NCBI RefSeq assembly: GCF_001719045.1
Contig: NZ_CP015423.1
Location: 1,820,001 to 1,884,000, forward strand
Direction of reading: 5' to 3'
Length of the DNA stretch: 64,000 nucleotides
From: Paenibacillus polymyxa
GTDB taxonomy: Bacteria > Bacillota > Bacilli > Paenibacillales > Paenibacillaceae
Both the position numbers and the translations under genes were made by a program. Under the pieces are notes generated by a model that was not told the origin of the DNA, searched no databases, and saw nothing but the letters and a program-made list of their open reading frames with translations. Positions 20,847 through 56,966 of the stretch are shown here, piece by piece (the first letter of the stretch is position 1; each line of letters begins with the position of its first letter).

Positions 20847-21248
20847 ATGAGTAACATTGACAATCAAAATATGGCAAGTACTTCAGGTTTTGCAAAAGGT
20901 TTATTTATTGGAGGTTTGATTGGTGCTGCCGCAGCCCTGCTATTCGCGCCGAAGCCGGGTCGTGATTTGCGTAGTGATCTGTCTGATAAAATTACAGTTG
21001 TCTCCGATAAAACAAAGGACGTGGCATCTGTAGTGAGCAGCAAAGCGACAGATTTGGCCAAAACCGTTTCCACCAAAACAGCAGATGTAGCCAAAACGGT
21101 ATCCGAGAGCAAAGACAACATCGTATCCAGCGTAACCAAGGCTTCTGCAGATGTCGCTAATGAAGCAGCCAAAGCGGATAAAGAAGTTATGGATGCAACG
21201 GCTCAAGCGGCCAAGGATACGCAAAAACAATTGAATGCAAATTCCTAA
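20847..21248 (+). CDS. YtxH-domain general-stress-like protein
   Basis: The 133-residue protein has an N-terminal membrane segment with the YtxH pattern GFAKGLFIGGLIGAAAALLFAPKPGRDLR, then a repetitive alpha-helical tail of Lys, Thr, Val, Ser and Ala (VSSKATDLAKTVSTKTADVAKTVSESKDN) that should form a coiled coil outside or along the membrane. In B. subtilis ytxH is a sigma-B member, but no obvious sigma-B promoter precedes this gene. GAGGAGTGATATAAC precedes the ATG. A terminator follows at 21291. Confidence 0.85.
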   Translation: MSNIDNQNMASTSGFAKGLFIGGLIGAAAALLFAPKPGRDLRSDLSDKITVVSDKTKDVASVVSSKATDLAKTVSTKTADVAKTVSESKDNIVSSVTKASADVANEAAKADKEVMDATAQAAKDTQKQLNANS

Positions 21249-23011: not shown

Positions 23012-23785
23012 TCATGAAATAGAGGAATTAGACATAATCTGCTTCAGCTTTTCCGTTGCCCGCTTCTGAATACGTGAAACGCTCATCTGCGATACGCCCA
23101 ACGTCTGTGCAATCGCACGTTGAGATTGACCGTCCTGAAATGCCAGAAGAAGCACCTTTTGTTCCTGCTCCTTCAGTTGGCTTAAAGCCTGCTGCAAATC
23201 CATTCGTTTTTCCACAGTGTCATAATCGTTAGCATCCGAGCTAATGAGCTCGCCTAACGTAGCTGCACTCTCTTCCTGAGATAAAGGAGAGTCTAGTGAA
23301 ACATAGTGATAGCACTCACGACCAGCAAGCACCTCGATCGTTTCTTCTACGGTAAGATCCAAATAGGTCGCAATCTCGTCTACATTGGGTGAGCGTTCCA
23401 ATTTAACGGTCAGTTCATCAATAGCATGTTGAACAAGCGCACCCTTTTCCTTAATGCGGCGAGGAACCTGGATGTACCAGGATTTGTCGCGCAAATAATT
23501 TTTCATATGTCCCAGCATACTTTTCATAGCATACGGTTCAAATGGGATACCCAAGCTGATATCGTATTGCTGAAGCAGACGTATCAAAGCCATCTGACCG
23601 GTCTGATATAAATCCTCGTATAAGTCCGGACGGTTACGGGAGATCTTCCCGGCAGCCATCTTGACCATTGGCTCATACTTGCGGATCAGCACGGTAGCAA
23701 TCTCGTTATCTTTTGTTTGCTGGTACTCCCAGATTAGACCAACGGCTTCATCCATCGACTCCGGGGGAGTTACCTTTTCATTCAT
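23012..23785 (-). CDS. sigB: RNA polymerase sigma factor SigB (general stress)
   Basis: The 257-residue sigma-70-type factor has region 2 (YEDLYQTGQMALIRLLQQYD), region 3 and the region 4 helix-turn-helix (QSQRAIAQTLGVSQMSVSRIQKRATEKL). It belongs to the SigB/SigF/SigG group. Its position in an rsbV-rsbW-sigB cluster identifies it as the general stress sigma factor. It overlaps the rsbW stop by four bases (ATGA), coupling translation. SigB directs stress genes with GTTT(A/C)- and GGGTA-type promoters; one such site is seen at 34031. Free SigB is released when RsbW binds dephosphorylated RsbV. Confidence 0.9.
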   Translation of the reverse strand: MNEKVTPPESMDEAVGLIWEYQQTKDNEIATVLIRKYEPMVKMAAGKISRNRPDLYEDLYQTGQMALIRLLQQYDISLGIPFEPYAMKSMLGHMKNYLRDKSWYIQVPRRIKEKGALVQHAIDELTVKLERSPNVDEIATYLDLTVEETIEVLAGRECYHYVSLDSPLSQEESAATLGELISSDANDYDTVEKRMDLQQALSQLKEQEQKVLLLAFQDGQSQRAIAQTLGVSQMSVSRIQKRATEKLKQIMSNSSIS

Positions 23786-24234
23786 ACTCTTTCCTCACTT
23801 CTGGTTAGGCGCTTTACCAGCACCACTTCGGTGCCTTTTCCTGTCTCATTCAAGATATGGACATCGTCCATAAGCGCCTGCATGAGATAAAAGCCTAATC
23901 CGCCTATCTGCGCATCATTCAACTCCTTGTCATGCAAGGATGCGATACGGGACGGGTCCTCCACACGTTCAAAGCTCTCCCCTTCATCTTTGACACGAAT
24001 GGACAACGAAGCTTCATCAAATTCAAATGTCACTTCCACGACTCCCCCCTCATGACCATATGCATAAAGGACAGAGTTATTACAGGCTTCCGATACAGCC
24101 ACTTTCATGTCTTCAATATCCTCATAAGAGAATCCCATTTTCGCGGCAATACCGTATAAATTTAATCTTACAATATCAACAAAGTCAGCAGTTGCCGGCA
24201 AATTAAGAACTACTTTTTGAATTTGAGCATTCAT
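23782..24234 (-). CDS. rsbW: Anti-sigma factor and serine kinase RsbW
   Basis: The 150-residue GHKL-type kinase both binds SigB and phosphorylates RsbV. Seen: the N-box region AVSEACNNSVLYAYGHEGG, DEGESFERV (the Mg-ATP-binding DxGxG-like segment) and GGLGFYLMQALMDDV near the C-terminus. It follows rsbV by 18 bases and overlaps sigB, the standard order. A strong AGGAAAGG-type site lies upstream of the ATG at 24234. Together with RsbV it forms the partner switch that holds SigB inactive in unstressed cells. Confidence 0.9.
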   Translation of the reverse strand: MNAQIQKVVLNLPATADFVDIVRLNLYGIAAKMGFSYEDIEDMKVAVSEACNNSVLYAYGHEGGVVEVTFEFDEASLSIRVKDEGESFERVEDPSRIASLHDKELNDAQIGGLGFYLMQALMDDVHILNETGKGTEVVLVKRLTRSEERV

Positions 24235-24252
24235 TTCTTTTTCTTTCCTTTC

Positions 24253-24591
24253 CTATTGGGAATTCTCCTGGGGGACAAAGAATTTGGCAATACCGGTCAT
24301 ATCAAACAGCTTTTGAATTTGAGGCGGTACCTCTTGAACAGCAAAGCGAGACTCCATCCCATGCCTTGCTTTTAAAATGGATAACAAGATACCAATACCC
24401 GTGCTGTCAATGTATTTAAGGTCTCTCAAGTTAATAATCAAATCTTGGCTGGACTCCCCCACCAAAGGCTCCATCACCAGACGAAAATCAGGTGCTACCG
24501 AAAGATCCAACTCTCCACTCAGATAAACGGTATTTACGCCATCGGTTGTTTCTGTAATTGCATTAAATTTCTCATTTTTATTTGTATTCAT
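24253..24591 (-). CDS. rsbV: Anti-anti-sigma factor RsbV
   Basis: The 112-residue STAS-domain protein carries the phosphorylation motif IDSTGIGILLSIL, where Ser63 is the RsbW target. Dephosphorylated RsbV binds RsbW and frees SigB. It is the first gene of the rsbVW-sigB part, about 100 bases downstream of a hybrid kinase gene in the same direction; a TATAAT lies in that gap, so it may be transcribed both from its own promoter and by readthrough. The ATG at 24591 has GGGAGAG upstream. Confidence 0.92.
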   Translation of the reverse strand: MNTNKNEKFNAITETTDGVNTVYLSGELDLSVAPDFRLVMEPLVGESSQDLIINLRDLKYIDSTGIGILLSILKARHGMESRFAVQEVPPQIQKLFDMTGIAKFFVPQENSQ

Positions 24592-24690
24592 AGGCCTACT
24601 CTCCCGAAAAAAGATTTCCCTACATACTAACCCATTATACGAGCGTTTGAATCACGGTATAACTTTTTAAACACTACCAAATGCCACCAT

Positions 24691-26361
24691 CTAGGCTTCA
24701 TTGATTTGATCTTTACCCGGCTGCATTGGAAAATGGTCCGGAGAATGCCGTAGCAACGCCTGTTTTACACTGCTGATTTTAACGGGCTTACTAATATAAT
24801 CGTTCATCCCAGCTTCAATACATCGAGGCTGAATACCCTCCATGACGTTAGCCGTCATGGCGATAATGGCAGGTTGGGATCTTCCCGCCAATTGTTTACG
24901 CATTCTACCCGTACATTCCAGACCGTCCATCACGGGCATCTGCAAGTCCATAAAGATATAGTCATAGTCCTGATTCGCCATGACCATATCAAGCGCCTGT
25001 TGCCCATCTGCTGCCACATCTGAAGCTAAACCAAGCTTATCCAGTATATTAACCATTAGCTTCTGGTTGATCGGATGGTCATCCACCACCAGTACAGGTT
25101 TACGACTTGGAGACTCCTGATGTGGAATTTCCCAATCGTGGCTGGACTCCCCCTTCAGTTCATTTTCCTCAGCAAAGCCAAGCTTCATTGTAAAATGAAA
25201 CGTCACGCCTTGTTCTCCACTCGTATCTACACGAATATCTCCGCCCATCATATTCACCAAGGTTTTACAAATGGCAAGTCCTAACCCGGTACCACCATAT
25301 TTACGCGTCATTGAAGAATCCAGTTGGGAAAAGGGCTGAAATAGCCTTCCGACCTTAGCCGAATCAATGCCAATGCCTGTATCCTTCACAGAAAACTCAA
25401 CGGTAAGTCCATTGTCACTGTGCTCTTTGACAGATGCGAAGACATATACCCCGCCTCGGTCTGTAAATTTGACGGCATTGGATACCAGGTTAATCAATAC
25501 TTGTCGCAATCGCCCCATATCTCCATATAACACCGGTGGCATCTGTTCATCGAGAAAATAAACCAGCTCCAAATTCTTTCGGTTGACTTCTACTGTAAAC
25601 AGGCTGAAAACTTCCTTGATACAGGAAACCAGATCAAAAGGATATTCCTCTACCTCCATTTTGCCTGACTCCAGCTTGGTAAAGTCCAGAATATCATTAA
25701 TGACCGCTACCAGCGCGTCTGCGCTACGACGGATGATATCAGCATATTCCTGCTGATCGGTCTGCAGCTCTGTCTCCATCAGCAGATCAATCATGCCAAT
25801 AACACCGTTCATAGGTGTACGGATCTCATGGCTCATCATTGCCAGAAATTCCGTTTTGGCATTGGCAGCAATCTCTGCTGCCTCCTTGGCGGCAATCAGT
25901 TCGCTGTTCATCTTCTCAAGCTCCTGCGTCTTGTGGTGAAGCAGCATGGATTGTGTCTTCAAGCGTTTGTTTGTCAGATACATTTGCACGAAGCCTTCAA
26001 TTTTGGACTTGAGAATTTGAGGGATGAACGGCTTCACCATATAATCAATACCACCGGCCGAATATCCCGCAAACAAATGCTCAGCTTCCTTGCTGTTAGC
26101 TGAAATAAAGATGATCGGAATATCCTTTGTTTTCTCTCTGGCCTTGATTAACTTTGCAGTCTCAATTCCATCCATACCCGGCATCTGCACATCAAGGACT
26201 ACAAGTGCGAATTCATCTTTTAATAGACATCGCAGCGCTTCTTCCCCGGATGTGGCTTTTACCAGATTATATTGTTCACTCTCCAGCACCGCCTCAAGAG
26301 CGAGCAGGTTCTCAGGTCTGTCATCTACCAGCAATATATGAATCGGTTCATGAAGCCCCAT
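24691..26361 (-). CDS. Soluble hybrid histidine kinase, REC-HisKA-HATPase-REC
   Basis: The 556-residue protein has no membrane segment. Domains: an N-terminal receiver (about 5-120, D57 in [13 protein letters not shown]), a coiled coil (130-165), HisKA with H178 in [12 protein letters not shown], HATPase (about 280-395, with NAVKF and KYGGTGLGL), and a C-terminal receiver (about 420-540, in [10 protein letters not shown]). It lies between the CheR gene and rsbV, only 20 bases from the former, so it is likely part of sigma-B signalling. No counterpart is known to me in the classical B. cereus rsbK locus. The input may be phosphotransfer from the larger kinase. Confidence 0.88.
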
Positions 26362-26380
26362 GGAATCCTCCTAAGCATCT

Positions 26381-27250
26381 CTATTTAATCTTCCGGTATA
26401 TTTTTTCTATCCGGTCCAGCGGCTCGTAGGAATCACTATAATCGGTAAAATGTATGGATTCCTTGGCCCCAAGCACCAACACACCAAAATGACTTAAGCT
26501 ATCATAAAACAACCCATGTACATGGTTGCGAAGTTCGTCGTTAAAATAGATCATGACATTCCGGCAAAAAATCACATTGAACTCGTTAAAGGACCGGTCT
26601 GTCGCTAAGTTGTGCTCCGCAAAAATAATATTCTTCCGTAAAAAAGGATGAAACATCACTGAATCATACTTGGCTGTATAATATTCAGAGAACGATTGTG
26701 TGCCCCCGGACTCCAAATAATTTTTGGTATACAGCTTCATTCGGTCGATCCCGTATACGCCTTCCTTCGCCTGCTGTAAAGACAGGTTATTCATATCCGT
26801 CGCATAAATGCGAGCCTTATCATATAAGCCTTCTTCATGCAGCAAGATCGCCATAGAATATACTTCCTCACCAGTGGAACAACCTGCATGCCAGATTCGA
26901 ATGTACGGATACGTTCGCAAAATAGGAATGATTTTCTGCCTGAAATTTAGAAACAGCTCCGGGTCACGGAACATCTCGGTCACCGGAATGGAAAGGCTTT
27001 GTACCAGTCTATCGAAGGCGCTGCGATCATGCAGCACCTTCTCCTGAAGTCCTGATATCGTGCTTACGTTCTCGGACTGCGCATGATAATAAACACGCCG
27101 CTTAATCGAAGGCAGAGCATAGTTACGAAAATCGTAGCCGTACAGCCGATGTATACCTTCCAGCAACAGCTCAATCTCAATCAATTCCCGCTCAGTATCA
27201 TTCGATTTCACTTCATTAGCAGCATTATCCGCCATATCCTTAGATGTCAT
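26381..27250 (-). CDS. CheR-type protein methyltransferase, RsbM-like
   Basis: The start at ATG 27250 (MTSKDMADNAANEV) has GGAGAG seven bases upstream; the frame extends to a TTG at 27295 without a better site, so the product is 289 residues. CheR motifs: VTEMFRDPELF, IWHAGCSTGEEVYSMAIL (SAM motif), YATDMNNLSL and FCRNVMIYFN. CheR-type enzymes methylate glutamates of receptors; in B. cereus the analogous RsbM methylates the RsbK kinase and restrains sigma-B. The gene sits just after the large kinase gene, as RsbM does relative to RsbK. The target here is inference. Confidence 0.88.
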   Translation of the reverse strand: MTSKDMADNAANEVKSNDTERELIEIELLLEGIHRLYGYDFRNYALPSIKRRVYYHAQSENVSTISGLQEKVLHDRSAFDRLVQSLSIPVTEMFRDPELFLNFRQKIIPILRTYPYIRIWHAGCSTGEEVYSMAILLHEEGLYDKARIYATDMNNLSLQQAKEGVYGIDRMKLYTKNYLESGGTQSFSEYYTAKYDSVMFHPFLRKNIIFAEHNLATDRSFNEFNVIFCRNVMIYFNDELRNHVHGLFYDSLSHFGVLVLGAKESIHFTDYSDSYEPLDRIEKIYRKIK

Positions 27251-27329
27251 AATCTCTCTCCAATTCCTAAATAGGTTTTGCCTATGCCGCTCCAATCATG
27301 TGTCGATTTATATTACCCATTTTTTTGGG

Positions 27330-30300
27330 TTACGAATACAACCAAACCCGCATTAATGATAAAAGCTGTTCGGTTTGAATCGGTTTTTTCACATAATCGG
27401 AAGCGCCTGCCTCAATACACTTGGAACGATCATCCTTCATGGCCTTGGCTGTCAGGGCAATAATAGGCATCTTCTCGAATTGTGGCATTAGCCGGATACG
27501 TCGCATCGCTTCATATCCATCCATTTCCGGCATCATCATATCCATCAGCACCAGATCAAAATCAGGTGTCTGTTCCAGCAGTTCCAGTGCTTCTCTTCCA
27601 TTTTCCGCAAAGGTAACCTCCATACGATAGCTTTCCAGCACACTAGACAGAGCAAATACATTGCGAATATCATCGTCTACCAACAATATTTTTTTTCCTT
27701 CAAACAGTTCTTCCTTGTTGTATAGCTTCTGCAAAATTTTGCGTTTGTCCTCAGGAAGGTTCGCCTCTACACGATGCAAGAACAACGTTGTTTCGTCCAA
27801 AAGCCGTTCCGGCGATTTAACATCCTTAATAATAATAGACTCTGCATATTTACGAAGTTGCGTTTCTTCTTTGCTATCCAGATCTTTGCCTGTATAAATA
27901 ATGATCGGCAGATCAGTTAGCTGCTCATTCTCTCGAATACGATCCAGCAGTTCAAAACCAGTCATATCGCTCAGCATCAGATCCAGTACCATGCAGTCAT
28001 ACCGCTGGGTAGCCAGCTCATTTAGTGCTTCCTGACCTGTCGATACCGCCGTAATGGCAACATCATCATGATCGATCAGCTCAATAATGGATTTACGCTG
28101 ATTATCATCATCTTCAACCACAAGGAGACGTTTGACCATCTGGTCCGTATACGATTTGATATGTGAAAATGCTTTATCCAGACTTTCCTTCGAAGATGGC
28201 TTTTTGAGATAGGCAATCGCACCCATCATCAAGCCCTGCTTCACATCATCTATGACCGAAATAACATGCACTGGAATATGACGTGTCGATGAATTTCCTT
28301 TTAGCTCGCCCAAAATGGACCAGCCATCCATCACAGGTAATTGAATATCTAATATAATAGCGTCCGGCAAATAAGACTGAGCCATGTTGAGCCCATCGTC
28401 TCCTTGGAGAGCGATCAGGGCCTTAAAGCCCCGACTACGGGCCATATCGTACAAAATATTAGCAAAATTAATATCATCCTCAATAATCAGCAGCACTTTA
28501 TCCTGTGAGGTAATCTCGTTTCGGTCGTCCCCCGGATGTATAATGTCCGCTGCTTTGTTTTTCGAAGGCATCTGATATAATGGCAAACGTTTAGCAGGCA
28601 TAATCATGGGAAGATCCGTTTCTGCCGAGGCTACGACATTCTCAAAATCCGAATTCACAACCGTACCGTTAAATTCCTCTCTCGAATGAGAATCCATATC
28701 CTCAGCCGTTGGCGTTTGTTCCGGCAAATACAGTGTGAAGCAACTGCCCTGTCCCTGCTCGGATTCCACCGTAATAACGCCGCCCAACAATCTGGAAAGC
28801 TCGCGGCTGATCGACAGACCTAGTCCTGTCCCTCCGTACTTCCGGCTGGTTGTACCGTCTACCTGCTGGAAGGCTTCGAAGATCAGATCCGTTTTATCGG
28901 AAGCAATCCCAATGCCCGTATCACGCACAGATAGAGCCAGATAGGCTCTTCTTGGATTTAGCAGACCAGGAAGCTGCTCTCCGTTTGCCCGGGATACATT
29001 GAAACGAATAGAACCTTCCGTGGTGAACTTGAACGCATTGGACAGCAAATTACGTAAAATTTGTTTGAGACGATAACCGTCACTGATAATGGCATCTGGC
29101 AGGTTCTCTTCAATCTCGGTATGCAGTTGAAGCTCACGTTGGGCTGCGACCGGAGCAAAATTCTGCTCCACAAACAGTTCCAGTTCCTTCAAGTGGACCG
29201 CTTCATGGTTAATATCCATTTTTCCAGCGTCCACTTTGGATAAATCCAGAATTTCATCAATCATTTTCAACAAATCGGCGCCTGACATATAAATGGTTTG
29301 TGCATATTCCACTTGCTTTGGCTTGAGATTGCCTTCCTTGTTCTCAGACAAGAGCTGAGAAAGAATAAGCAAGCTATTTAGCGGAGTACGCAGCTCATGA
29401 GACATATTGGCCAAAAACTCGGATTTGTATTTGCTTGTGATTCCTAGCTGCATTGCTTGTTGCTCCAACTGAGCTCGTGCATGTTCAATCTCGTCGTTCT
29501 TTTCTTCCACTTCTCGAACTTGTTCTTCTAGCGCTCTCGTTTTGGCAATCAGTTCAGTATTAAAATGCTCCAATTCTTCTTGTTGACGTTGTAACAATTC
29601 CTCTGAACGCTTGAGTTCTTCTGTTTGCTCCTCCAAATTTTCGTTGGAGCGCTTGAGTTCCTCTTGCTGAGTTTGTAGTTCTTCGGATTGGCATTGCAAT
29701 TCCTCAGTAAGTGCCTGAGATTCGCGCAGCAATTGCTCTACACGCATCCGTCCCTTGATATTGTTCAGAATGATCCCCAAGCTCTCTACTAATTGAGCAA
29801 ACAGCTTGGTTTCCAGATCACTGAAGCGATCCAGTGACGCTATTTCTACAGCACCAATACACTCATCCTCGAACAAAATAGGGAAAATCATAATTCCCAC
29901 GGGCTTACTTTCTCCTAAGGCAGAGCCTATGGACAAATATCCGTCAGGAGCCTCTGTAATCAAGATCGGCTTACGATCCAGAACACATTGTCCGAGCAAT
30001 CCTTCGCCCACATGGATAATGTCCCTAATCGAATTTTCGCCAGTCACCTTTGCATAGGAACCGTATAACTTAAAACGGTTGTCTTCTACATCTTTCCCTT
30101 GCAAATAGATGGCTCCATAGCTGCCTCCCAAGATGGGCGTAAACTCACTAATGAACATCTGAGCAACCTGCTCCAGTGAATTTACGCCACGGAACAACTC
30201 AGTCACCCGAGCAGTATTGGCATTAAGCCAAGTTTGGTCCTTCTGCGTTTGAAGGACGGAATGTTCAAATTTCCGCTTTTCTTCCAAGTCTCCGGCCATT

Positions 30301-31049
30301 TGTTGAAATACACGAGCGACCTCACCAATTTCATCTTTGGAGGCAACACTTATTCGGCTGATGGCCCTGTACTTTCCCTTGCCAAAACCATTAATCATGA
30401 GATTCACGACATTTAGACCTTTGGCAATGCTTGGGAGCACCCACAAAATAACCAGTAAGCCCATGATCAGGCCGGCGGCCATCAGAATTGTGGTAATCTG
30501 CACAGATTCTTCATACGCCAAATTGGCCTGCTTCATGTCGCTATCAATTTCCCGATCCTGAAAAACGGCAAGGGCATTAATACTATCCATCGCCTCTTCT
30601 TGGGCAGGCAAACCAGTACTATTGCGGAAAGCGTTAGCCTCATCAATACGATCTTGCCCCAACAAAGAAACCAGTCTTTGTTCGTAACTTAAAAATTCAT
30701 TCCACGCGACGGCTACCCGATCAACCTGCTGTTGCTCTTCACTGGTGCCGGAATTCGTTTGCAGACTAGTCAGCACTTTCGTTCCAGTAGCCGAAATATC
30801 GTCCAGCTCGCGTTTGGCCTCACTAACGGAGGAACCTGGATTCAAGATCAGATTGGCCATCACTTTGGCCATATCATTCACCTGCCCGCGAATAGCTGTT
30901 GTTTTCCGGACCTTCATATATCGATCCTGATAAACCTGGTTTAGCTGTTCATTCAGGCTCCCCATCCGGTCATAGCTGATTAGCGTCAGCACAAGGAGGA
31001 TCGCCATAAGCGATCCAAAGCCGATCAGCAGTTTATTTCTGATTTTCAT
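27330..31049 (-). CDS. Membrane hybrid histidine kinase with three receiver domains, RsbK-like
   Basis: The 1239-residue sensor has TM1 (about 7-27), an extracytoplasmic helical sensor (30-185), TM2 (185-207), HAMP (207-262), GAF (285-430), a long coiled coil (440-535), HisKA with H551 (FLANMSHELRTP), HATPase (about 650-770), and three receivers (about 860-975, 990-1105, 1120-1237), each with a phosphoacceptor Asp (LDIQLPVMDG, LDLMLSDMTG, MDMMMPEMDG). The coiled coil is the region where B. cereus RsbK is methylated. It overlaps the REC-PP2C gene by 17 bases and is followed by CheR. It is therefore probably the sigma-B stress sensor; stimulus is unknown. Confidence 0.9.
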   Translation of the reverse strand: MKIRNKLLIGFGSLMAILLVLTLISYDRMGSLNEQLNQVYQDRYMKVRKTTAIRGQVNDMAKVMANLILNPGSSVSEAKRELDDISATGTKVLTSLQTNSGTSEEQQQVDRVAVAWNEFLSYEQRLVSLLGQDRIDEANAFRNSTGLPAQEEAMDSINALAVFQDREIDSDMKQANLAYEESVQITTILMAAGLIMGLLVILWVLPSIAKGLNVVNLMINGFGKGKYRAISRISVASKDEIGEVARVFQQMAGDLEEKRKFEHSVLQTQKDQTWLNANTARVTELFRGVNSLEQVAQMFISEFTPILGGSYGAIYLQGKDVEDNRFKLYGSYAKVTGENSIRDIIHVGEGLLGQCVLDRKPILITEAPDGYLSIGSALGESKPVGIMIFPILFEDECIGAVEIASLDRFSDLETKLFAQLVESLGIILNNIKGRMRVEQLLRESQALTEELQCQSEELQTQQEELKRSNENLEEQTEELKRSEELLQRQQEELEHFNTELIAKTRALEEQVREVEEKNDEIEHARAQLEQQAMQLGITSKYKSEFLANMSHELRTPLNSLLILSQLLSENKEGNLKPKQVEYAQTIYMSGADLLKMIDEILDLSKVDAGKMDINHEAVHLKELELFVEQNFAPVAAQRELQLHTEIEENLPDAIISDGYRLKQILRNLLSNAFKFTTEGSIRFNVSRANGEQLPGLLNPRRAYLALSVRDTGIGIASDKTDLIFEAFQQVDGTTSRKYGGTGLGLSISRELSRLLGGVITVESEQGQGSCFTLYLPEQTPTAEDMDSHSREEFNGTVVNSDFENVVASAETDLPMIMPAKRLPLYQMPSKNKAADIIHPGDDRNEITSQDKVLLIIEDDINFANILYDMARSRGFKALIALQGDDGLNMAQSYLPDAIILDIQLPVMDGWSILGELKGNSSTRHIPVHVISVIDDVKQGLMMGAIAYLKKPSSKESLDKAFSHIKSYTDQMVKRLLVVEDDDNQRKSIIELIDHDDVAITAVSTGQEALNELATQRYDCMVLDLMLSDMTGFELLDRIRENEQLTDLPIIIYTGKDLDSKEETQLRKYAESIIIKDVKSPERLLDETTLFLHRVEANLPEDKRKILQKLYNKEELFEGKKILLVDDDIRNVFALSSVLESYRMEVTFAENGREALELLEQTPDFDLVLMDMMMPEMDGYEAMRRIRLMPQFEKMPIIALTAKAMKDDRSKCIEAGASDYVKKPIQTEQLLSLMRVWLYS

Positions 31050-32214
31050 GCAAGCTCTCTCCCTCTTTCAATGAAATCCAGATCAGGCACTTATCATCAT
31101 CGCGATCCTGTGGCGTCTCATTACGAAAAAATGCATCCAGCATCGCTTCTTCGTTCCATTCCTCATACTTACGTAGACACTCAGTCAGATACTCCAACTG
31201 CTCCTCATATTCACCTTCCACCGCTTCCAGCAAGCCATCCGTATACAAAGCGATATGTCCAGTTCCTTCATAATGAATCGTGTGCATTTCTGCATCAATC
31301 TTATCAAACAAACCAACCGGGCTACATGCACGGTCAAATTTGGTAATGCTGCCATCCTGGTTGAACAGCAAACCGGGAGGATGTCCCGCATTTACATAGT
31401 CAATTCGCCGTGAACGGGTATCAATCACCATATAAATCGCCGTAAAATAATACTGTACCAGCTGCTTGCCCAGATCCAGTTGATTAAAACGACGATTCAG
31501 CTCTTGTATGACTTTCTCAGGCTCCACATATGTGGTCACCGTATCCTTAAGTACAGACGCAATGAACATGCAGAACAACGAGGAAGAAATGCCATGCCCC
31601 ATCATATCAAGCAAAATGATGGCATATCGCCCCTCCCCTAACGGATACCATGAATATAAATCCCCTGCCAGTTCAAAGGAAGGCTGATAGAGCGCATTCA
31701 CTTGCAGCACTTGGTCATGGATGGCAGGACTAAGCACCGCCTGCTGCACCATCGCGGCCAGCTTCAACTCATCCTGAATTCGCTGATCCCGATCCTTATG
31801 CCAATCCTTCTCCTGTTTGAGACGCAAGGCAGACCGGATTCGCGCCATGAGCTCTACCTTGTTGATCGGCTTCGTGACGTAATCGACGGCTCCCACATCT
31901 AGAGCTTCGGCCAATTTTTTGGAATCTCCTACCGCCGTTACCATAATAATCGGGATATCTTTTAAATGCTCATATTCCTGCACAATACTGCAAGCTTCAA
32001 TGCCGTCCATTTCAGGCATCATCATATCCAGCAGCACCAGATCAATATCGGAAGGACGGGGCCGAAGACTAATGGTACGGTCGCCGATTCCCAGATGCTC
32101 CAACATTTCTGCGGCCGAGCTAGCAGAGATCACATCCCGATAATTTTCTTTTTTCAGTATTTCACGAATAATAATGACATTCGTCGGGTTATCGTCAACA
32201 ATTAGAATTCTCAT
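31033..32214 (-). CDS. REC-PP2C phosphatase, RsbY-like
   Basis: The 393-residue protein has an N-terminal receiver (1-130, D63 in VLLDMMMPEMDG), a linker coil, and a SpoIIE-type PP2C domain (about 175-385) with LAGDLYSWYPLG, ILLDMMGHGISSSLF, VNAGHPPGLL and LYTDGLLEA. This is the architecture of RsbY in B. cereus, which dephosphorylates RsbV when its receiver is phosphorylated, and so activates SigB. It is the first gene of the signalling set. AAGGAGAGG precedes the ATG, and a TATAAT (32242-32247) lies about 30 bases upstream. Confidence 0.92.
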   Translation of the reverse strand: MRILIVDDNPTNVIIIREILKKENYRDVISASSAAEMLEHLGIGDRTISLRPRPSDIDLVLLDMMMPEMDGIEACSIVQEYEHLKDIPIIMVTAVGDSKKLAEALDVGAVDYVTKPINKVELMARIRSALRLKQEKDWHKDRDQRIQDELKLAAMVQQAVLSPAIHDQVLQVNALYQPSFELAGDLYSWYPLGEGRYAIILLDMMGHGISSSLFCMFIASVLKDTVTTYVEPEKVIQELNRRFNQLDLGKQLVQYYFTAIYMVIDTRSRRIDYVNAGHPPGLLFNQDGSITKFDRACSPVGLFDKIDAEMHTIHYEGTGHIALYTDGLLEAVEGEYEEQLEYLTECLRKYEEWNEEAMLDAFFRNETPQDRDDDKCLIWISLKEGESLHENQK

Positions 32215-32310: not shown

Positions 32311-32366
32311 CCAAAAACATAGATAAGGAATGAGGCTAAAACCCCATTCCTTATCTATGTTTTTGG
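32311..32366. terminator. Bidirectional-looking terminator upstream of the kinase set
   Basis: A 22-bp stem (CCAAAAACATAGATAAGGAATG and its complement) with flanking A and T runs lies after the YflT-like gene. It separates the three-gene stress unit from the rsb signalling genes. Confidence 0.85.
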
Positions 32367-32449: not shown

Positions 32450-32791
32450 TCACGCTTTTTTAGCAATGACCAGCACTTTACCCTGATCCAGTTCTTTTTC
32501 ATAAAAGTCAGCTTCGGTATCTGTAAATCCCAAAGAAGTAATTTTAGCGCGAAGCTCATCGCCACGGGAACGGAACAAGTTGGCTAATGAATCGAAAACG
32601 CCCTCTTCCTTAATCCCGATTTCCTTGGCATCCACCGTATCGGCAATACGATCTGTCCGATCCTGATCATGAGCGAGCACGAACACATCCTCATAACGAT
32701 AGCCCGTGTTACGCAACTCATTTACTGCTTCAACGGCTTGTACACCGTTATCTACCACTTTGGCATAAGATTTATGATTGGTCTGATTCAT
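32450..32791 (-). CDS. yflT: General stress protein, YflT-like
   Basis: The start is ATG 32791, ten bases after GGAG; a GTG at 32800 is too close to the site. The 113-residue protein shows the general-stress-protein-17M pattern: KVVDNGVQAVEAVNELRNTGYRYEDVFVLAHDQDRT and FYEKELDQGKVLVIAKKA. The B. subtilis homologue is sigma-B dependent. Here it ends a three-gene unit (with DUF948 and a secreted protein) that starts at a sigma-B-type promoter at 34031. It lies next to the sigB locus, which fits a stress role. Confidence 0.82.
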   Translation of the reverse strand: MNQTNHKSYAKVVDNGVQAVEAVNELRNTGYRYEDVFVLAHDQDRTDRIADTVDAKEIGIKEEGVFDSLANLFRSRGDELRAKITSLGFTDTEADFYEKELDQGKVLVIAKKA

Positions 32792-32887
32792 GTTTCTCAC
32801 GCTCCTTTAAGGATTGACTTCTCTGACTATTACACTTCACATATCCATTTGAAACTTCCATGTTATGTCACGCCTCGTAAAAATCGA

Positions 32888-33457: not shown

Positions 33458-33979
33458 CTACTGACGCATTTTCTGCCACACCCCAGCAGCGATGTCTACA
33501 TAACCCAACCAGTTTTTACCCGGTTTGGCCGCAGGTTCCTCATACGTCGCATTGTAGCTCTGAACCGTCCGCTCCGTTGCGGTCAAAGGTCTATTCGGTG
33601 TCGTTGCCTTGATCGCGTGATCCGTTCTGGAGGTATTACTCGCAGCGCTATGCGATTTCTGAAACCGTGTCATTAACGCTGTTGAAGCCTGCTTGGCAGC
33701 CAGCGTCACTTCGCTGAGTACCTCTCCCAAGTTTCTAACCGATTCCATCACTGGCTCCACTTGCTTCAATTTATGATCAACGTCTGCGGTGATGTCATTC
33801 GCATGTCGAACCGTTTGTTTTACTTCATAACTCAGTTCATCTATCGTTTTTTGTACATCCTGCAAGGTTTGAGTCACCTTATCCAGAGAGCCTTGTGCTG
33901 CTTTTAACGTTTTGATGAGGAAAATAACGAGAACTGCAAATGCGATAGCAATAATAAAAATGCTGACCTGTGTTAACAT
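33458..33979 (-). CDS. ytxG: DUF948 domain protein, YtxG-like
   Basis: The 173-residue protein has an N-terminal membrane segment (about 5-27) and then a helical region (KAAQGSLDKVTQTLQDVQKTIDELSYEVKQTVRHANDI) typical of DUF948, followed by a basic, low-complexity C-terminus. B. subtilis YtxG, of this family, belongs to a sigma-B-controlled operon. A close sigma-B-type promoter lies about 52 bases upstream (34031-34056). It appears to head a three-gene stress unit. Confidence 0.82.
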   Translation of the reverse strand: MLTQVSIFIIAIAFAVLVIFLIKTLKAAQGSLDKVTQTLQDVQKTIDELSYEVKQTVRHANDITADVDHKLKQVEPVMESVRNLGEVLSEVTLAAKQASTALMTRFQKSHSAASNTSRTDHAIKATTPNRPLTATERTVQSYNATYEEPAAKPGKNWLGYVDIAAGVWQKMRQ

Positions 33980-34030: not shown

Positions 34031-34056
34031 TTACCCTTTAGATTCAGACACGAAAC
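34031..34056 (-). promoter_or_regulatory. Candidate sigma-B promoter
   Basis: On the minus strand GTTTCG (34056-34051) and GGGTAA (34036-34031) are separated by 14 bases. The B. subtilis sigma-B consensus is GTTTAA, 12-15 bases, GGGTAT. Transcription would start near 34024 and give a leader of about 45 bases to the ytxG-like start. Confidence 0.65.
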
Positions 34057-56611: not shown

Positions 56612-56735
56612 TTTAAGATTCTACAGGTGATTTTCAAAAAATTGTCGATTGTCAGAAGATGTACAGGTACGATATACTGTAGTTCGCTATACAATAAAAT
56701 ATCATGTCATACACCTCATCAACCCTGTTTTATGA

Positions 56736-56932
56736 TGAGGTAGAGGTCGCGGATGTAATCAGTACACCGGAGGAGACGATAAGAGCCGTCTGAGATTCCA
56801 GTGGAAAGGTACACCCGCCGAAGTATGCGGAGCTGACTCTTTGTAAATACTCCGAATGCTGGGGCTGCTAACCGAAAGGAGCAGAACTGTCACACGCTGT
56901 CCTAACACAGACACGTGTGTTGAGCTATCTTG
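56736..56932 (+). ncRNA. Lysine riboswitch (L-box)
   Basis: The leader between cvfC and the lysP-like gene carries L-box hallmarks: GGTAGAGGTCGCG at the 5' side, GAAAGG and CGCCGAAG in the core, and the 3' GGGCTGCTAACCGAAAGGAG-type segment. The closing helix pairs AGGTAG (56738) with CTATCT (56925). A terminator hairpin follows at 56967. High lysine should cause termination and lower the permease expression. Confidence 0.9.
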
Positions 56933-56966
56933 TTATGGAAGAAGGTATGGTGCGGAATGCATAGAC

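Follow-up and report, generated by a model that had tools for sequence, protein, structure and literature searches.

A second hybrid kinase at the sigB locus of Paenibacillus polymyxa looks like part of an older, widespread sensor cassette

RESULTS

Gene content of the sigB locus

We analyzed a stretch of 64,000 nucleotides (nt) of the Paenibacillus polymyxa genome (contig NZ_CP015423.1 of assembly GCF_001719045.1, positions 1,820,001 to 1,884,000; here called the window) and, within it, a cluster of seven genes surrounding the control of the general stress sigma factor SigB. All seven open reading frames were confirmed on the minus strand between window positions 23012 and 32214, in the order that a preliminary description of this DNA had given: a receiver (REC)-PP2C protein, a membrane kinase with three receivers, a CheR methyltransferase, a second hybrid kinase with a receiver at either end (here called HK2), rsbV, rsbW, and sigB. 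Each matched its described architecture in Pfam above the cutoff, the HAMP domain of the three-receiver kinase being the sole exception. The features are as follows.

31033..32214, minus strand: rsbY-like gene, 393 amino acids (aa); Pfam Response_reg (96 bits) and SpoIIE/PP2C (119.5 bits); presumed phospho-RsbV phosphatase
27330..31049, minus strand: rsbK-like membrane hybrid kinase, 1239 aa; 4HB_MCP-HAMP(weak)-GAF-coiled coil-HisKA-HATPase-REC1-REC2-REC3
28155..28499, minus strand: RsbK receiver 1, aa 851-965
27780..28133, minus strand: RsbK receiver 2, aa 973-1090; its active site is the least conserved of the RsbK receivers
27354..27689, minus strand: RsbK receiver 3, aa 1121-1232; corresponds to the single receiver of one-receiver kinases
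26381..27250, minus strand: rsbM-like CheR methyltransferase, 289 aa from ATG; Pfam CheR (138 bits); frame listed to 27295
24691..26361, minus strand: HK2, 556 aa; REC-HisKA-HATPase-REC without membrane-like stretches
25978..26340, minus strand: HK2 N-terminal receiver, aa 8-128; corresponds to the receiver at the head of the REC-X protein in the cassette described below
24754..25095, minus strand: HK2 C-terminal receiver, aa 423-536; missing from several related lineages
24628..24653, minus strand: SigB-type promoter upstream of rsbV; G[T/A]TTC box, spacer of 14, GGGTTA
24253..24591, minus strand: rsbV, anti-anti-sigma factor; Pfam STAS
23782..24234, minus strand: rsbW, anti-sigma kinase; HATPase_c_2; NCBIfam NF003144 (155.8 bits)
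23012..23785, minus strand: sigB-like sigma factor gene; Pfam sigma-70 r2/r3/r4

In a hydropathy scan, the three-receiver kinase had two membrane-like stretches, at approximately residues 3 to 27 and 182 to 217; its sensor region matched Pfam 4HB_MCP_1 and gave no match to CHASE3. The same scan, which is not a dedicated membrane predictor, found no membrane-like stretch in HK2. The ATG at 27250 is the more likely start of the CheR protein over the TTG at 27295, and the CheR homologue in locus L035 is also 289 aa long. The rsbY and rsbK genes overlap by 17 nt, rsbK and the CheR gene are 34 or 79 nt apart depending on the CheR start, HK2 begins 19 nt after CheR, a gap of 99 nt separates HK2 from rsbV, rsbV and rsbW are 18 nt apart, and rsbW and sigB overlap by 4 nt. 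No CheB was found among the seven proteins. The likeness of the first three products to RsbY, RsbK, and RsbM of Bacillus cereus, proposed in the preliminary description, was borne out by the joining of REC to PP2C with a conserved phospho-Asp, by the membrane GAF hybrid kinase, and by the CheR without a CheB. The best NCBIfam matches of the sigma factor were the SigB/F/G and SigB models, all below the cutoff (TIGR02941: 201 versus 315 bits); we call it SigB on account of its partners and its promoter. RsbW scored above the NF003144 equivalog cutoff (155.8 versus 145 bits) and below that of TIGR01924 (127.9 versus 155 bits).

The SigB-type motif, G[T/A]TTC followed by GGGTTA, precedes rsbV in 51 of 59 loci of the genus, with a spacer of 14 in 50. 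None of 348 upstream regions of the six other gene types in those loci contained it, and shuffling of upstream sequences produced it at a rate of 0.06%; 27 of 84 other loci had a looser form. Because this promoter sits between HK2 and rsbV, the cluster probably comprises two transcription units, and SigB probably drives its own rsbV-rsbW-sigB unit, separate from the sensor unit. In this respect the preliminary picture of a whole relay beside the sigma factor gene is not supported.

Conservation of gene order and active sites

Searches for RsbW gave a match in 59 of 60 genus genomes and in 103 of 118 of the family set. The window was compared with 58 other genus loci and with 80 of the 91 loci that other genera of the family supplied. 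The seven-gene order was intact in 54 of the 58 genus loci and in 25 of the 80 family loci. Within the genus, the exceptions were L043, which has a deletion, and L055, L068, and L077, in which frames are split. A further 25 of the 80 family loci had rsbV-rsbW-sigB without a linked kinase of the RsbK/HK2 kind, 21 of these also without REC-PP2C, and the remaining 30 carried shortened or rearranged versions. G038, the sole genus genome without RsbW, gave no match to the RsbK sensor or RsbM either. The order found within the genus rules out chance adjacency of the seven genes, and the extra kinase, whose lack of conservation would have counted against the preliminary reading, is kept with the cluster, close behind rsbM and active-looking. 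Architectures were scored with profiles made from the window's own proteins, so distant domains can escape them, and Pfam was run on selected proteins; some genomes sit in the cross-phylum set described below as well as in the other sets (L040/L195, L056/L198, L182/L214).

By median identity to the window, HK2 is at least as conserved as RsbK, with 72.4% for HK2 (minimum 28.7%, an off-target match kept in the count) and 67.4% for RsbK in the genus, and 70.1% and 63.5%, respectively, in the 25 intact family loci. RsbK residues H551 and N671 and both G-box glycines were present in all 97 three-receiver rows, as were the receiver residues D901 and D1170, and D1023 was present in 95. HK2 residues D57, H178, N295, and D472 were present in 87 of 87 REC-HK-REC rows, and on the strength of such near-invariant catalytic and phosphoacceptor residues we rejected the view of HK2 as a decayed kinase. 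Of 126 aligned Paenibacillales rows of RsbY, 125 have the phospho-Asp, D63 (the other has a gap), and all have the three PP2C Asp residues; the RsbV Ser, S63, is present in 143 of 143 rows.

Kinship with a cassette shared by many phyla

The RsbM-type CheR forms a group clearly distinct from other CheR proteins: among the matches listed for 299 genomes of the phylum, 10 scored above 290 bits (5 from its own family) and the rest below 134. A scan across phyla gave the loci of the best 80 of at least 593 relatives, here called the cross-phylum set, and these span Bacillota, Proteobacteria, Bacteroidota, Cyanobacteria, Spirochaetes, and others. A kinase was scored directly before CheR in 66 of these 80 loci, with three receivers in 49. 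In 38 of the 49, the 2.5 kb that follow CheR encode a REC-headed protein of more than 250 aa, which was scored as a kinase in 29. The receivers of all 49 three-receiver kinases, 44 of them from outside Bacillales, matched RsbK receivers 1, 2, and 3 of the window in that order, and the sole receiver of one-receiver kinases best matched receiver 3 in 28 of 28 cases. The N-terminal receivers of the REC-headed proteins were best matched by the HK2 N-receiver in 50 of 50 cross-phylum cases (43 outside Bacillales) and in 112 of 112 from Paenibacillales. The background of this match is high (among 85 other receivers of the same loci, the best match was the HK2 N-receiver for 35, receiver 3 for 27, receiver 2 for 10, and receiver 1 for 6), yet 50 of 50 clearly exceeds it.

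Pfam searches of ten chosen cassette neighbors found a CheB in both gaps tested (L220, L231), one REC-HisKA and one REC-HWE kinase, four REC-GGDEF proteins (one with PAS), one REC-PAS-PilZ, and one REC-PAS-GAF-GGDEF-EAL. The kinase-CheR-HK2 trio looks like one form of a cassette that recurs across many phyla, with CheR followed by a REC-headed protein whose output varies. HK2 occupies the position of the cassette's response regulator, and a response regulator whose output is a kinase describes it better than an additional sensor does. The cfcABCDE genes of Pseudomonas putida are very probably this cassette; the CheB member of the cfc type is not present in the window cluster. The extra kinase and the two extra receivers, which had been taken for an addition to the B. 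cereus design, would rather be a retained form of this older cassette.

Related arrangements were seen elsewhere. Four loci (L180, L181, L186, L191) carry three-receiver kinase and CheR pairs without HK2, which we read as paralogous modules; MarR and FUSC genes adjoin in L180. Three others (L174, L175, L176) carry the RsbK-RsbM-HK2 trio alone, with no rsbY or sigB in the fetched stretch, and their genomes carry rsbV-rsbW-sigB elsewhere (L136, L140, L132). One RsbM-type CheR match (G447:C3:2771673-2772506) lies inside an open frame of 1196 aa, possibly a fusion.

Natural reductions of the cluster in relatives

In loci with sigB, HK2 never accompanied a one-receiver RsbK (0 of 15) and always accompanied a two- or three-receiver RsbK (103 of 103), counts that come from related rows and include at least two genomes twice. 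RsbK without HK2 was found in loci of the groups labeled g12 and g17 and of Cohnella and Neobacillus. Trees were made by quick searches, and the first, used for the HK2 clade, contains long outgroup rows. In the GAF-HK tree, the one-receiver kinases of g12 and Cohnella nest with three-receiver kinases (Shimodaira-Hasegawa approximate likelihood ratio test [SH-aLRT] 100), which makes a joint loss of HK2 and of receivers 1 and 2 in this branch probable. The one-receiver kinases of Bacillaceae and g17 form a separate branch, apart from the Paenibacillus kinases (SH-aLRT 99; B. cereus is not in the tree).

Both the clean counts and the joint loss speak for a reading in which HK2 acts on RsbK, phosphorylating receiver 1, receiver 2, or both and so setting the threshold of that main kinase, by adaptation or as a sink, while RsbK alone phosphorylates RsbY. 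The sole receiver of B. cereus RsbK, probably the counterpart of receiver 3, is described as inhibitory in the passages on that kinase in PMC4574943, which points the same way. Away from sigB, however, HK2 is missing next to the three-receiver kinases of the four paralogous modules named above, and a REC-headed neighbor accompanies five one-receiver kinases (L177-L179, L199, L201). The association of receiver number with HK2 was not significant in a phylogenetic test, with three changes on the tree and 2 to 3 independent pairs, and a strict link between the two was rejected. HK2 also persists in some loci that have lost RsbK. We consider an action of HK2 on RsbK unlikely, if not far behind a branched scheme in which both kinases converge on RsbY. 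A link between RsbK receiver 1 and the HK2 C-receiver, suggested by the group labeled g6, did not hold for g12 or for the order's other families.

The loci without RsbK were of three kinds. In L043, RsbK, RsbM, and the HK2 C-receiver are lost, and the rest of HK2 is kept at 95% identity directly behind rsbY. In three g6 loci (L123, L124, L126), RsbK is lost and RsbM and HK2 are kept. In four loci of the group labeled g18 (L119-L122), only a stripped, receiver-less kinase lies behind rsbY, and RsbY holds the sole receiver scored in the locus; this kinase groups with HK2 (38-row HK2 clade, SH-aLRT 98), and its neighbor in the tree is the HK2 of g12. Outside these loci, the genomes of L043 and of five g18 loci gave no relative of the RsbK sensor or of RsbM (E values of 1e-15 and 1e-30), and relocation of RsbK in these genomes was set aside. 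Three genomes (G082, G124, G157) carry elsewhere a distant RsbK-like frame of 930 to 938 aa with 26 to 30% identity, which may be a paralogue of the L182 type. The kinase that relatives retain beside rsbY is in some cases RsbK alone, in others HK2 alone, and in others again a stripped derivative of HK2. We therefore favor two routes that meet at RsbY, and the pattern suggests that either RsbK or HK2 alone can serve RsbY.

Phosphotransfer and partner-switch proteins elsewhere in the genome

The preliminary description had proposed a branched or multistep phosphorelay. No stand-alone Hpt was found in the P. polymyxa genome; Hpt matches lay only inside frames of 709, 576, and 857 aa, and none was found in the cluster proteins. 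This weakens a classical His-Asp-His-Asp relay, here a linear passage of phosphate from RsbK to the HK2 N-receiver, on to the HK2 His, and then to RsbY. The alternation of His and Asp modules, with their residues kept, would suit such a relay, and phosphate reportedly flows between the two hybrid kinases CheA3 and CheS3 of Rhodospirillum centenum. HK2, however, has its own conserved ATPase domain, which would be superfluous in a relay, and it stays where RsbK is lost. In B. cereus, RsbK drives RsbY without an HK2, and a relay was argued against partly because no Hpt was present, as told in the passages on this pathway in PMC4574943; an RsbK without HK2 recurs in lookalike loci. A linear relay is thus very unlikely, and branching is the part of the proposal that stays plausible.

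Searches of the same genome gave four matches to SpoIIE-type phosphatases (an 836-aa frame, RsbY, and two weak ones). STAS matches were RsbV, a 119-aa frame that we take to be SpoIIAA, and two larger ones, 606 and 534 aa long; none of these was a stressosome STAS protein.

Sequences around the cluster

Genes for YflT (32450-32800), a DUF948 protein (33458-33979), and YtxH (20847-21248) flank the cluster. Candidate SigB-type sites at yflT (32830-32855) and at the DUF948 gene (34031-34056) were weak, with scores within the range of shuffled windows, and were not retained. Between yflT and rsbY lies a 27-bp hairpin (32317-32360; -50 kcal/mol for a 101-nt stretch, z of -9), which is probably a bidirectional terminator. 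Both arms carry the same 14-nt stem core in 57 of the 84 loci checked (59 from the genus and 25 from the family), the hairpin is kept in L043, where yflT survives only as a 15-aa tail match, and its pattern was found at a single place in its own genome. The hairpin region had no Rfam match. A role as a trap for the ribosome-binding site (RBS) of rsbY was considered and rejected: an arm and the RBS share AGATAAGG in 43 of 56 hairpin loci, and as the 13 exceptions are largely from other genera, the sharing may reflect kinship. Farther away in the window, a lysine riboswitch lies at 56733-56935 (Rfam RF00168, 95.7 bits).

DISCUSSION

A proposed convergence of two kinases on one phosphatase

The reading that we prefer is that an old two-kinase sensor cassette drives the SigB partner switch, arranged as a branched circuit that converges on RsbY and not as a linear relay. 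We give it a probability of roughly 45%. RsbK, a membrane protein with a GAF domain and a coiled coil that is presumably methylated by RsbM, would autophosphorylate and pass phosphate to the RsbY receiver. The PP2C domain of RsbY would then dephosphorylate phospho-RsbV, RsbV would take RsbW, and the freed SigB would fire its own promoter ahead of rsbV. For the path from RsbK through RsbY to RsbV, and for methylation by RsbM, we argue by analogy with B. cereus. HK2 would be the second response regulator of RsbK: its N-receiver would take phosphate from RsbK or be read by it, and the state of this receiver would tune the HK2 kinase, which would feed or drain RsbY by a second route. What the sequences themselves show is the genes and their order, the conservation, the intact active sites, the kinship with the cassette, the promoter motif, the lack of a match to a stand-alone Hpt, and the natural reductions; the action of RsbK on HK2 and that of HK2 on RsbY are proposals of ours.

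Several observations weigh against this scheme. When the RsbY receiver was compared with others of its own genome, HK2 ranked 8th of 60 (54.6 bits), behind, among others, a regulator of OmpR size (71.9 bits) and RsbK receiver 3 (57.9 bits); from the HK2 side, four frames of OmpR-regulator size came before RsbY, which was 5th of 62 other matches. The expectation that the RsbY receiver would be nearest to that of HK2, as reported for CfcR and CfcD, was not borne out. In one g18 locus (L118), no kinase at all is linked to rsbY, whose receiver is intact, so that linkage is no proof of input. The nonsignificant association of receiver number with HK2 counts here as well. Positions of the DHp domain, which according to work on EnvZ reportedly bear on phosphotransfer specificity, give a divided answer. 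The position 11 residues after the His is V in all four stripped kinases, I in 102 of 102 RsbK rows, and G in 83 of 83 rows of the main HK2 group (G or A in the order set). The residues at +13 (S in 3 of 4) and +14 (E in 4 of 4) of the stripped kinases likewise resemble those of RsbK but are also found in g12 HK2, which coexists with RsbK (S in 3 of 3, E in 2 of 3); they were dropped as signs of re-aiming, and only +11 sets the stripped kinase apart. The HK2 proteins of L043 and g6, left without RsbK, keep the HK2-type pattern, and either they phosphorylate RsbY unchanged or these loci have lost their input.

A last point against our scheme comes from P. putida, where mutants in the other cfc genes were without effect on the cfcA phenotype tested, according to unpublished results told in a passage of PMC4951495. 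That these genes are dispensable would favor HK2 being a passenger of the cassette with some other output and no bearing on SigB, as would the absence of HK2 from several lineages that keep RsbK, RsbM, and RsbY. Against a passenger stand the strict conservation of the HK2 residues and the fact that three lineages without RsbK (L043, part of g6, and part of g18) still carry HK2, or at least its kinase part, next to rsbY. We regard this as less likely still than an action of HK2 on RsbK.

The convergence of both kinases on RsbY, if it exists, can be carried one step further. HK2 might be a response regulator whose kinase output acts on the same switch as RsbK, making a kinase-over-kinase feed-forward loop on SigB. 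Species without RsbK would then have re-aimed HK2, and in one genus HK2 would have shed its receivers to become the sole kinase beside RsbY, its +11 position drifting toward the RsbK type in a natural change of specificity. This extension is speculative and we hold it to be doubtful.

What appears new here is the origin of the "extra" kinase, which looks like a member of an older cassette present in many phyla. The RsbK, RsbY, and RsbM part had already been published for Paenibacillus (PMC9847131). In the open-licence PMC literature, we found no description of HK2, of the three receivers, of this gene order, or of the link to the cassette. Through this link, the RsbK module of general stress control falls within a widespread but little-studied cassette that joins a three-receiver kinase, CheR, and a REC-headed partner; the link also suggests roles for the extra receivers and the second kinase. 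The family offers a natural series of variants (both kinases, either one, a stripped one, or none) around the same output phosphatase, so the role of multiple receivers on a hybrid kinase is directly testable with one reporter. Relatives that lack one kinase or the other are natural experiments on circuit rewiring.

Comparison with known systems

The CheA3 and CheS3 kinases of R. centenum, likened to the present pair by description only, reportedly also work as two hybrid kinases in one pathway, but in a chemotaxis-like cascade. A close counterpart is the RsbK-RsbM-RsbY system of B. cereus, which has in common with the window the REC-PP2C protein, the GAF hybrid kinase, the unpaired CheR, and rsbV-rsbW-sigB, with kinase, phosphatase, and methyltransferase linked to sigB. 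According to the passages on it in PMC4574943, RsbK of B. cereus activates RsbY, is methylated by RsbM on its coiled coil, and has one receiver and a CHASE3 sensor; the kinase of the window has three receivers and a 4HB_MCP sensor and is accompanied by HK2. RsbK, RsbY, RsbM, RsbV, RsbW, and SigB, and in addition RsbQP, have been reported in Paenibacillus, the former in Paenibacillus sp. JDR-2 and Y412MC10 (PMC9847131); the first six are probably orthologous to the genes of the window, and the relevant passages of that paper make no mention of HK2, three receivers, or gene order. The cfcABCDE genes of P. putida resemble the cluster in the hybrid kinase CfcA, which is proposed to control the diguanylate cyclase CfcR, in a CheR/CheB pair, and in the REC protein CfcD, as given in the passages on these genes in PMC4951495. 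The corresponding locus of another P. putida strain than KT2440 (L220) encodes a CHASE3-GAF-HK-3REC kinase, CheR, CheB, and a REC-HK protein. The cfc system thus differs from the window cluster in having a CheB and in its output, a diguanylate cyclase in place of a PP2C phosphatase.

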